Shown: positions 46,274 to 49,232 of the stretch, in pieces
Layout: each line of letters opens with the position of its first letter
How positions within the stretch are numbered: the stretch's first letter is position 1
Source of the DNA: Deltaproteobacteria bacterium
Lineage (GTDB): Bacteria > Myxococcota_A > Polyangia > Polyangiales > JADJMO01
Reading direction: 5' to 3'
Length of the DNA stretch: 61,686 nucleotides
Assembly: GCA_025363655.1 (NCBI GenBank)
Contig: JANYDK010000095.1
Coordinates: 1 to 61,686 of the forward strand
Translations under genes and position numbers: made by a program
Notes under the pieces: generated by a model
What the model saw: the letters and a program-made list of their open reading frames with translations, nothing else
Told to the model about the DNA's origin: nothing
The model's database searches: none

Positions 46274-47128
46274 TCACTGCAACGCCAGGATCCGCTCTCC
46301 TATCTGCACATCGCGTCCAATCGCAGGCAACGCATCTTCTCGAACTGCACTCCCGACAAGACCCTCCGGCAACACCATCACCACCGTGCTCCCGAAGCGA
46401 AAGTGCCCCAGCTCCTCCCCCTTCGCGACCCCACGACCGAGCGCGAAAGGACGCGGCCCGACCCACGCGCTGCGCGCATGCCCGAAGAGCTCGATCCCGC
46501 CAATCACGCTGGCCCCGACCATCACCATCAAGACTTCGTGGCCGCCGATCACCATTCGCAAGACCGCGCGCTCGTTGCGCTCGTAGATGCCCGGCACGTG
46601 ACGTAGCGCGTCCTCGTTCTGCGGAAAGAATCGGCCGGCGATCCAGCGAACGTCGAGGAGTTGTGCGTCGAAGGGCGCGTGCACGTAGTGGTAGCCGCGC
46701 GGAGACAAGAAGGTCGTCACGTAGGCGCCGCCTTGGTACTTCGCGAGATCCCAACGCGGGGAGGTCGGCGCGCCGCCGTGCACCACGCGATCGAGCGAGA
46801 GCGGGACGCCCTTCACCTGGAGAATCGTGTCGCGATCGACGCGACCGGCGCCGACGATGCGGCCATCGCACGGCGCCACCAGCCCCTCGCCGAGGGGACG
46901 CGCGCCCGGACGCAGACGTCGCAGGAAGAAGTCGGAGAGCGATTCGTAGCGTCGATCTTCGAAGTCACCCAGCTCGATGTCGTCGCGGCGCACCCACGCC
47001 GCGATGGCCGCGTCGACCGCCCAGCGTGGCCTACGCAGTCCGGTGATCGTCGCCGCCGTGCGGTTGATGACGCCGTGAGGGAGCGCCGGATAGAGCTGGA
47101 AAAATGGCTCCGTTCGCCAGAAGCTCAT
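46274..47128 (-). CDS. psd: Phosphatidylserine decarboxylase
   Basis: A 284-aa pro-enzyme that decarboxylates phosphatidylserine to phosphatidylethanolamine. Seen are ESLSDFFLRRLRPGARPL, APCDGRIVGAGRV, QVKGVPLSLDRVV, GYHYVHAPFDAQLLDV (active-site His) and the self-cleavage site in HFRFGSTVVMVLPEG, where the GST serine becomes the pyruvoyl group. The order and length fit bacterial Psd (class I). Its ATG overlaps the stop of the desaturase-methyltransferase gene, so it is the last gene of a three-gene lipid operon. Confidence 0.93.
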   Translation of the reverse strand: MSFWRTEPFFQLYPALPHGVINRTAATITGLRRPRWAVDAAIAAWVRRDDIELGDFEDRRYESLSDFFLRRLRPGARPLGEGLVAPCDGRIVGAGRVDRDTILQVKGVPLSLDRVVHGGAPTSPRWDLAKYQGGAYVTTFLSPRGYHYVHAPFDAQLLDVRWIAGRFFPQNEDALRHVPGIYERNERAVLRMVIGGHEVLMVMVGASVIGGIELFGHARSAWVGPRPFALGRGVAKGEELGHFRFGSTVVMVLPEGLVGSAVREDALPAIGRDVQIGERILALQ

Positions 47129-48441
47129 CGCGGCCGCTCACTCGCGGGACGGACGACGTTCAAGCGCTTGAGGAGCCACCAGGCGATCGACGTGCCCTCG
47201 CCGGTGCGCCGCCAGCTCCAGTCGTGCACCAAGGTGAGCGTGCGCGCGTGGGTGACGGCAGTGCGCTTTCCGACGAAGGCGAGGGGGACGATGACGAGAT
47301 CGAACTCGCACTCGCCCGTCTCGTCGGTCTCGTCGGTCTCGTCGCTCGCGCCTTCACGATCGCCATCGAAACGCGCGTGACGGAGCTCGACGCCGTCGAG
47401 TGCGCTCTCGCGTTCGAGCTCTCGTTTCGCGATCGCGAGGTTGGGTGCGCTCGCGTCGATGACGACGAGGCGTCGTCCTGGCAAGAGCCGCTGCATCACC
47501 AAGACCGTGCGGGGAAAGAGGCCGCCGCCGACGATGCAGATGCGATGGATGCGCTCTTGCCCGAGCTTCGGCAACACCCTGGCGAAGGCGCGCACGTGCG
47601 CTTCGACCACGAATTTTCGAATGAACGACGACGACAACGGCAAGCGTTCGAGCCCGCCGAGCAGGTGCGCGATGCCGAGTTGGAGCGCGGCGCGCGCGCC
47701 TTCGAGGAAACGGAGGACTGGAGGGAACGCGCTCTCGCGGGCTCCGGGCGTCGCCTTCGCTCGAGTGCGCAGTGACGGCAACGTCGTCCAGTGCGCGGAA
47801 GGACGCAGGTGATGCTCGGCGTGGAAGCCGTCGTTGAGCCAGAGTCGGTTGTAGAGCGTGCCGTAGTGGCTGATGCCGACGCGGAGATCGGGGGGCGAAG
47901 TCTCGCCCGAGCGGTGCTCGAAGTGACCCTGCAGGAAGCAGAGAAACATCCCGAGGGCCCAGCCGGGGAGGTACGCGTAGAGCGCGAAGTTGGGGACGAA
48001 GGCGACGAGCGCGAGCCAGGTCGCGATCACGCCTGCGCACTCGACGATGCCCGACGCGCCGAGCCGAAGACGTGGTCCTGTCGAAGGCTCACCGGCGTGA
48101 TGCCAGAGGTGTCGCTGCTTCCAAATCGTCTGCGGCACCCCGAGGACGATCGAGAGCGCGAAGGAAAACGCCTGGTTTGCCCGGCGCCCGACGAAGATCG
48201 GGTTGTGCAGATGGTTGTGCGAGACGGTGTTCGACGACCACCAGATCCCGACGCCGACGAAGGCCGCCGATGCGAGGGCGGCCGGGATGCTGAGCGGCAT
48301 GAGCGTCAGCATGCCGATGAAGGCGATGAAGGCGAGGGCATGCGCAGAGGCGATGACGACGAGGGCCGCGTCGCGCGGAGAGTGTCGAAACACCCCCGCG
48401 CGCGCGGCGATCGTCGAGGGAGGCAAGACCTCCGCGTTCAT
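47125..48441 (-). CDS. Fatty-acid desaturase fused to a C-terminal SAM-methyltransferase-like domain
   Basis: A 438-aa protein from the ATG at 48441. Residues ~20-250 are a membrane desaturase: two pairs of hydrophobic helices and the three His boxes HNHLH (75-79), HLWHH (111-115) and HAEHH (207-211), with H173/H176 between, which hold the di-iron centre. Residues ~275-438 form a Rossmann-like domain whose motif I is HRICIVGGGLFPRTVLVM, followed by an acidic LVVIDASAPNLAIAKRELE, as in SAM-dependent methyltransferases; a DETDETDET insert sits within it. I do not know this fusion. The likely chemistry is desaturation plus methylation of an acyl chain. Confidence 0.75.
   Translation of the reverse strand: MNAEVLPPSTIAARAGVFRHSPRDAALVVIASAHALAFIAFIGMLTLMPLSIPAALASAAFVGVGIWWSSNTVSHNHLHNPIFVGRRANQAFSFALSIVLGVPQTIWKQRHLWHHAGEPSTGPRLRLGASGIVECAGVIATWLALVAFVPNFALYAYLPGWALGMFLCFLQGHFEHRSGETSPPDLRVGISHYGTLYNRLWLNDGFHAEHHLRPSAHWTTLPSLRTRAKATPGARESAFPPVLRFLEGARAALQLGIAHLLGGLERLPLSSSFIRKFVVEAHVRAFARVLPKLGQERIHRICIVGGGLFPRTVLVMQRLLPGRRLVVIDASAPNLAIAKRELERESALDGVELRHARFDGDREGASDETDETDETGECEFDLVIVPLAFVGKRTAVTHARTLTLVHDWSWRRTGEGTSIAWWLLKRLNVVRPASERPR
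47318..47344. repeat. Three 9-bp GTCTCGTCG units
   Basis: Perfect tandem repeat encoding DETDETDET within the methyltransferase-like half of the desaturase fusion gene. Slippage would change copy number without breaking the frame. Confidence 0.75.
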
Positions 48442-49232
48442 CCGCGTCGGAATCCGCGTCGGCGAGTTGCGAGGAGCCCGAGGGCCATCAGCGAGACGAC
48501 GCCGAAGCCGACCGCGCCCGTTGCCGAACCGTAGCTGCAACCTCCGCCGCCGTCCGAACCGCCGGGAGAAGCCGTTCCTGTATCGGCTGCAGGCGTGCCG
48601 GTGTCGGTCGTCGGCGTTCCCGTGTCGGTCGGCGTCGTGCCGGTGTCGGCCTTGGTGCCCGTGTCGGTCGTCGTGCCGGTATCGGCAGCCGTTCCGGTGT
48701 CGGTTTTGGGACTCGTGTCGGCACCTCCGGTGTCGGACGGTCCTGCGTCGCCAGTCGTACCGTCACACTTCGCGGCGACCTGCGTGCCGCACTCGCCGAC
48801 GCCGAACACGTCCATGGTGCCCACGCCGAGATCGTAGGTGTCGGCGGTGCCGAGCGCGGTCCCCTCGGTGTGCACCGTCACCGATGGCACCTTCGAGAGC
48901 GAGCCGAAGCCGCGGCAGTGTCCCGACGCGATCACGCCTTCGATCTCGCCCCATTGCATGCGGCAGAGCGACTCGCTGCCTGCAGGACACTTGAAGTGAA
49001 GATAGCCGCAGCTCGGCGGCGTGCTGAACGAATACGAAGGCGGCGTGCCGCCGAGGTTGAGCTCGAAGGTGCCGTGGATGACGAACTCGGTGGCCGACGC
49101 CTTGTCGGGGATCCACTGCACCGAGCGCGGCGCGGTGATGACCCCGAACGGATCGCTCGCGAACGCGCTCGTCGACGTCCCGACGGACGCGAGCACCACA
49201 CCGAAGCATGCCAAAGCGAATTTGTGTTTCAT
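48438..49232 (-). CDS. Secreted MYXO-CTERM protein, first gene of the lipid operon
   Basis: A 264-aa protein with a signal peptide (MKHKFALACFGVVLASVGTS, cleaved after AFA), a ~130-residue folded domain (ATEFVIHGTFELNLGG, CGYLHFKCPAGSESLCRMQ, TYDLGVGTMDVFGVGECGT) with six cysteines, a TDTGTTTDTG linker (~residues 165-225), and a sorting tail (GGGGCSYGSATG, hydrophobic helix, RRRGFRRG). The function of the domain is unknown. GAGGAGC lies before the ATG. Its stop overlaps the desaturase start (ATGA), so a secreted surface protein and two lipid enzymes are made from one message. Confidence 0.8.
   Translation of the reverse strand: MKHKFALACFGVVLASVGTSTSAFASDPFGVITAPRSVQWIPDKASATEFVIHGTFELNLGGTPPSYSFSTPPSCGYLHFKCPAGSESLCRMQWGEIEGVIASGHCRGFGSLSKVPSVTVHTEGTALGTADTYDLGVGTMDVFGVGECGTQVAAKCDGTTGDAGPSDTGGADTSPKTDTGTAADTGTTTDTGTKADTGTTPTDTGTPTTDTGTPAADTGTASPGGSDGGGGCSYGSATGAVGFGVVSLMALGLLATRRRGFRRG

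Follow-up and report, generated by a model that had tools for sequence, protein, structure and literature searches.

The MYXO-CTERM/MrtX pathway concerns proteins that end in a tripartite tail, made of a cysteine, a transmembrane (TM) helix and an arginine-rich end, and such proteins are universal in the phylum considered here (PMC11980579). In the Archaea Haloferax and Methanosarcina, archaeosortase A is found with PssA and PssD, a Psd-type enzyme being tied to the attachment of lipid to surface proteins that are sorted at their C-terminus; in Haloferax the archaeosortase substrates depend on both enzymes for their lipid modification and processing (PMC7157517). These systems use ether lipids, and in Methanosarcina the gene of the sorting enzyme adjoins pssA and pssD. 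In Neisseria, PptA, a relative of the PE-using EptB of E. coli, works in the periplasm with PE as donor and places phosphoethanolamine on surface pilin and on lipoproteins (PMC4010543). Acyl-lipid membrane desaturases (PF00487) are marked by three His boxes. LtaS and the phosphoglycerol transferases combine about five TM helices with an extracytoplasmic PF00884 domain that follows them, and the catalytic residue of LtaS is a threonine.

The DNA analysed here, which we call the window, is a stretch of 61,686 nt (contig JANYDK010000095.1 of assembly GCA_025363655.1, from a Deltaproteobacteria bacterium of the Polyangiales, JADJMO01). It holds a set of four genes (Table 1) that recalls each of these systems and departs from each of them. 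One product, termed the partner, has the tripartite tail, but the MYXO-CTERM/MrtX pathway is phylum-wide whereas the gene set is sporadic and comes without a myxosortase. A Psd-type enzyme is shared with the archaeal systems, which lack the desaturase-SAM fusion, the LtaS-like enzyme and a single dedicated partner. PptA and EptB, which we take to belong to the same superfamily as the LtaS-like protein, have neither a dedicated Psd nor a desaturase, and the window protein has no match to the EptA-type N-terminal domain. From LtaS the window protein differs by its score (32 bits with the NCBIfam equivalog, whose cut-off is 970), by a serine in the motif PESIKG and by its diderm host. Finally, the desaturase half has the three His boxes and a PF00487 score over the cut-off, as acyl-lipid desaturases do, but it is a short form joined to a SAM domain.

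Table 1. Features of the window discussed in the text
Feature	Position	Strand	Basis
LtaS/EptA-like sulfatase-superfamily membrane protein, 616 aa	38141..39991	+	PF00884 E=5e-36
Cys-rich putative lipoprotein, 353 aa	40137..41198	-	
Kelch/Cys-rich repeat protein, 1650 aa	41247..46199	-	
Psd2, 284 aa	46274..47128	-	PF02666 E=4e-47; TIGR00163
Desaturase/SAM-domain fusion, 438 aa	47125..48441	-	ORF; PF00487 E=3e-16
Class-I SAM-type Rossmann domain of the fusion, predicted, residues ~272-430	47152..47628	-	AlphaFold fold; GGGxFPR loop
Membrane di-iron desaturase domain of the fusion, residues ~18-233	47743..48390	-	PF00487; His boxes
Partner surface protein, 264 aa	48438..49232	-	ORF; family alignments
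C-terminal MYXO-CTERM-type tail in the partner (G231-C232, invariant; TM helix; RRR end)	48441..48542	-	sequence; homologue alignments
Protein of ~1200 aa	49788..53393	+	

Layout of the locus

The genes of the partner, of the fusion and of Psd2 form an operon (46274-49232), with ATGA at both junctions. The original prediction, read from the letters of the window and its open reading frames, had this right, coordinates included. At related loci a few bases separate the partner and fusion genes, and the fusion/Psd ATGA is kept in several. Where the prediction fell short is in its extent, as it left out the gene of the LtaS/EptA-like protein, on the opposite strand, which is co-inherited with the other three and is, judging from the comparisons given below, the fourth member of a module. 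We chose GTG as the start of that gene. A PF00884 membrane protein lies near the operon at most loci scanned, and it is convergent in many; in the window, the genes of the putative lipoprotein and of the Kelch protein stand between it and Psd2. No sortase or CPBP protease was seen among the scanned neighbours in the window, and the eleven-odd CPBP genes of the window's genome are all on other contigs.

The four protein families

Psd2 scores 160.9 bits with PF02666 (cut-off 22) and 141 bits with TIGR00163 (cut-off 111.75). The motifs xDG, YHxxH and FGST are conserved in an alignment of 15 operon Psds, and in a tree these form a separate clade, with F-GST in 15/15 as against L/I-GST in 19/19 housekeeping enzymes. 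Psd2 is one of two Psd genes in the genome of the window; at least two are found in 20 of the 22 genomes that carry the fusion, against one of 26 sampled non-carriers. As a second Psd in most carriers, in a clade of its own and with its catalytic residues kept, Psd2 is a module-specific paralogue of phosphatidylserine decarboxylase, and bulk PE probably has another source.

The fusion protein begins with a desaturase domain (PF00487, 60.4 bits, cut-off 29.7) whose His boxes, H75xxxH79, H111xxHH115 and H207xxHH211, are invariant in an alignment of 16 homologues; a search of this half against PDB sequences returned no match at E up to 10. That it is joined to a SAM-type Rossmann domain, as was originally proposed, is borne out by the PF00487 match, the predicted fold and the loop GGGxFPR, a SAM loop that is invariant in 20/20 homologues from across the phylum, together with Asp329 (after strand 2), His406, Trp408 and Lys425. 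The AlphaFold model has a mean pLDDT of 78.5, with about 84-95 in the core of the C-terminal domain, and the predicted structure of that domain is a class-I SAM-methyltransferase fold, with which Foldseek agrees. The best structural matches are histamine methyltransferase and DnrK (Z ~13), with MtNAS at 11.8, class-I folds all scoring alike (Z 11-13). No Pfam or NCBIfam model matches the domain above cut-off. Below threshold, the best Pfam match of its homologues, in some members only, is to Methyltransf_31 (E ~8e-5), with Methyltransf_25 also present; NAS (nicotianamine synthase) is weakly matched by 5/11 members (E up to 0.1, best 8.5e-4), and the window's own domain has no Pfam match at E 0.01. 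The loop, in the form GGGxFPR[ST], presumably resembles that of NAS. We regard the domain as an unnamed family with a predicted class-I SAM-methyltransferase fold, for which the sub-threshold Pfam matches make methyl transfer likely and aminocarboxypropyl transfer possible. A methylated or cyclopropane acyl chain is a possible product, among several options.

The two halves always occur together, with no split version in searches of 193, 377 and 309 genomes. When the fusion profile was run against the 377 genomes, it found no separate SAM domain at E <=1e-10, and plain desaturases of the phylum (six such listed) reached only about 43-48 bits. The fusion gene is cut by contig ends in two genomes, G517 and G552; in G517, where the halves lie at contig ends, the cause is most likely a break in the assembly. 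The original prediction had called this fusion unfamiliar, and in the open-licence literature we found no desaturase-methyltransferase fusion of this kind. The family thus appears to be undescribed.

The partner consists of a signal peptide, a domain of about 125 aa with four conserved cysteines, a linker rich in D, T and G, and the MYXO-CTERM-type tail. The signal peptide, the invariant cysteine, the TM helix and the arginine-rich C-terminus of a MYXO-CTERM protein are all seen in the sequence and in the alignments. No Pfam model matches it above cut-off; in NCBIfam, two models of families that bear MYXO-CTERM match at E 0.001-0.007, with no match to a curated MYXO-CTERM domain model. Its predicted fold bears a weak likeness to OB folds, the best match having a Z of 6.0 over 84 residues. 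The linkers are variable among homologues, with no conserved Ser/Thr site seen. The protein is a MYXO-CTERM protein of a new family, whose domain appears to be undescribed. Extra copies of its domain exist in two genomes, at three loci of G192 (L145, L146 and L147) and on two contigs of G522 (C5 and C283). One, in G192, has a MYXO-CTERM-like tail and adjoins a short-chain dehydrogenase; the others have no such tail, and one of them shows a possible lipoprotein signal.

The LtaS-like protein has, by hydropathy, about five TM segments followed by a catalytic domain that matches PF00884 with 125 bits. Its residues E250, S290 (in PESIKG), D465 and H466 are invariant in the homologue alignment, so that the metal-site residues are kept and a serine stands at the nucleophile position. 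It falls far below the curated cut-offs of the EptA-type (CptA) models.

Distribution and co-inheritance

Our genome searches covered the phylum and groups within it. The fusion was found in 10/193 relatives, 14/377 genomes of the phylum and 18/309 of the class, which comes to 22 distinct genomes, spread over 16 genera of about ten families. The module is present in about 4-6% of the sampled genomes; many of these are fragmentary MAGs, and the counts are lower bounds that ignore shared ancestry. The distribution is sporadic, two genera (g2 and g100) each having one carrier and one non-carrier. A scan of a bacteria-wide collection with short peptide patterns returned only two myxobacterial loci.

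Gene order is conserved, as the original prediction would have it: a Psd gene lies directly downstream of the fusion in 21 of the 22 carriers, and a partner homologue directly upstream in 15. The exception for Psd is G492, where the partner, fusion and LtaS-like genes are together and the single Psd is elsewhere. The partner domain is present in 19/22 carrier genomes; it is located elsewhere in three (G001, G313 and G522), and in G355 it probably lies upstream across a contig break.

Close homologues of the LtaS-like protein (>400 bits) occur in 12 of the 377 phylum genomes, all of them among the 14 carriers of the fusion, the best match in a non-carrier being 338 bits and the following one 185. 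This threshold was chosen after the gap had been seen; it then held in the 309 class genomes, where exactly the 18 carriers, seven of them new relative to the 377-genome sample, have a match above it and the best non-carrier reaches 235 bits. The N-terminal domain of the partner, searched for independently in the 377 genomes, is found in exactly the 12 that have a close LtaS-like homologue, all other matches covering linker and tail only. Three carriers, G313, G555 and G562, have the LtaS-like gene at a distance from the fusion (in the last case some 2.3 Mb off on the same contig); linkage is therefore not the cause of the co-occurrence. The hypergeometric p of the overlap, 6e-21, takes no account of shared ancestry and says no more than that the overlap is far from chance. 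Pairwise evolutionary distances correlate among the four families (r 0.68-0.88). The four genes are a co-inherited, dedicated module.

Two variants deserve mention. G252 and G427, of one family, have the fusion and Psd (at loci L150 and L078) without the partner domain or a close LtaS-like homologue. The fusion can thus act without them, and the arrangement is possibly an ancestral or reduced form. In G216, which has no fusion, two LtaS-like proteins, on contigs C11 and C25, score 313-338 bits; they are the nearest outgroup of the family in the sample.

A proposed special lipid for one surface protein

Since the four families are co-inherited, even where the LtaS-like gene is unlinked, our preferred reading, held tentatively and at a little under an even chance, is that the four components form a dedicated envelope module by which one surface protein is coupled to a special phospholipid. 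Positive loops and the usual topology of desaturases suggest that Psd2 and the fusion face the cytoplasm, and the catalytic domain of the LtaS-like protein, like the partner, would face the periplasm. PE would be made by Psd2 at the cytoplasmic face; the fusion would then oxidise the lipid, by desaturation or hydroxylation, and modify it with SAM, most likely on the acyl chain, else on the ethanolamine head. Once moved to the periplasmic leaflet, the lipid would serve as donor for the LtaS/EptA-like enzyme, which would transfer a group, most likely the phospho-head-group, to the cognate partner or to its glycan; the protein would then travel to the surface by way of myxosortase and type II secretion. 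Least certain among these steps are what the acceptor is and which group is transferred. Both ends of the scheme have precedents, PssA/PssD in Haloferax (PMC7157517) and PptA in Neisseria (PMC4010543).

Several observations speak against this scheme. If only the head group were transferred by the LtaS-like enzyme, it is hard to see what a modified acyl chain would be for. The operon Psd is absent from G492, and G252 and G427 lack two of the four components; the linker offers no conserved Ser/Thr, and the LtaS-like protein is far below the LtaS and EptA cut-offs. The further proposal that this is an unrecognised bacterial modification of surface proteins, in which one cognate sorted protein receives a lipid-derived group from a Ser-type LtaS-like transferase, the dedicated phospholipid coming from its own decarboxylase and a fused desaturase/SAM enzyme, we consider rather unlikely. 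As a phosphotransferase, the LtaS-like protein would be an unusual one for a diderm.

It may be instead, and we give this a real if lesser chance, that the product of the module is an unusual phospholipid serving the whole envelope, with a role in stress or membrane properties; the LtaS-like enzyme would remodel or turn over the lipid, or build a glycerophosphate or phosphoethanolamine polymer, and the MYXO-CTERM protein would bind the product without being modified. All three enzymes belong to families that act on lipids or head groups, which suits this account, as do the two genomes with fusion and Psd but no partner, the three in which the partner domain lies apart from the fusion, and the G192 paralogues without the MYXO-CTERM tail. 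The partner domain is, on the other hand, co-inherited almost as strictly as the enzymes are, and its place as first gene of the operon at 15 loci favours a one-to-one relation.

A variant of the second step, compatible with any of these readings, has the SAM domain act on the head group, either by N-methylating the PE made by Psd2 or by a NAS-like aminocarboxypropyl transfer, the LtaS-like enzyme then transferring the resulting phospho-head-group. The Psd and LtaS/EptA families both handle head groups, and the weak NAS matches beside those to Methyltransf_25/31, the MtNAS structural match and the presumed likeness of the loops point the same way. We nonetheless hold the variant to be unlikely: it leaves the fused desaturase unexplained, and the matches are below curated cut-offs in a domain that all class-I folds resemble to the same degree.

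Quite improbable, in our view, is a reading in which the invariant cysteine in the tail is lipidated with this lipid as donor, the module serving the anchoring of the partner or of many proteins. MYXO-CTERM proteins have yet to be assigned a lipid donor and an acyltransferase (PMC11980579), the partner has the required cysteine, and the archaeal PssA/PssD are required for lipidation of archaeosortase substrates (PMC7157517). Yet MYXO-CTERM is phylum-wide, MrtX cleaves it in E. coli without these genes (PMC11980579), and the module has no sorting protease. The original prediction linked a special lipid to the anchoring of surface proteins; co-inheritance strongly suggests that a special lipid is linked to one such protein, but with the tail universal and the module so sporadic (14/377 and 18/309), the module is not the general anchoring machinery, and it is unlikely to take part in anchoring MYXO-CTERM proteins at large. 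The idea that the cysteine, once cleaved and lipidated, is carboxyl-methylated in the manner of ICMT, the third step of CAAX processing, was set aside, as that cysteine is on the periplasmic side of the inner membrane (PMC11980579) while the usual desaturase topology would place the SAM domain in the cytoplasm.

The identity of the MYXO-CTERM lipid and its route of attachment are a standing question (PMC11980579), for which the module gives a handle on a single protein. A surface-protein family co-inherited with its own lipid enzymes makes a small gene set, amenable to joint deletion or expression.

Other genes of the window

The 1650-aa Kelch/Cys-rich repeat protein, encoded directly 3' of psd2 on the same strand, has its own C-terminal MYXO-CTERM-type tail (GGC...RRRR); none was seen beside the module at the other loci. 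The 353-aa putative lipoprotein has a low-complexity stretch rich in D and S, and a Pfam search with it gave zero matches. Beyond the operon, the ~1200-aa protein has a weak peptidoglycan-binding match and, by eye, a motif like that of zinc metalloproteases (AAHEIGHCMF); it is followed by large ORFs that have no Pfam matches, and together they are possibly a secretion-related or effector-like cluster.
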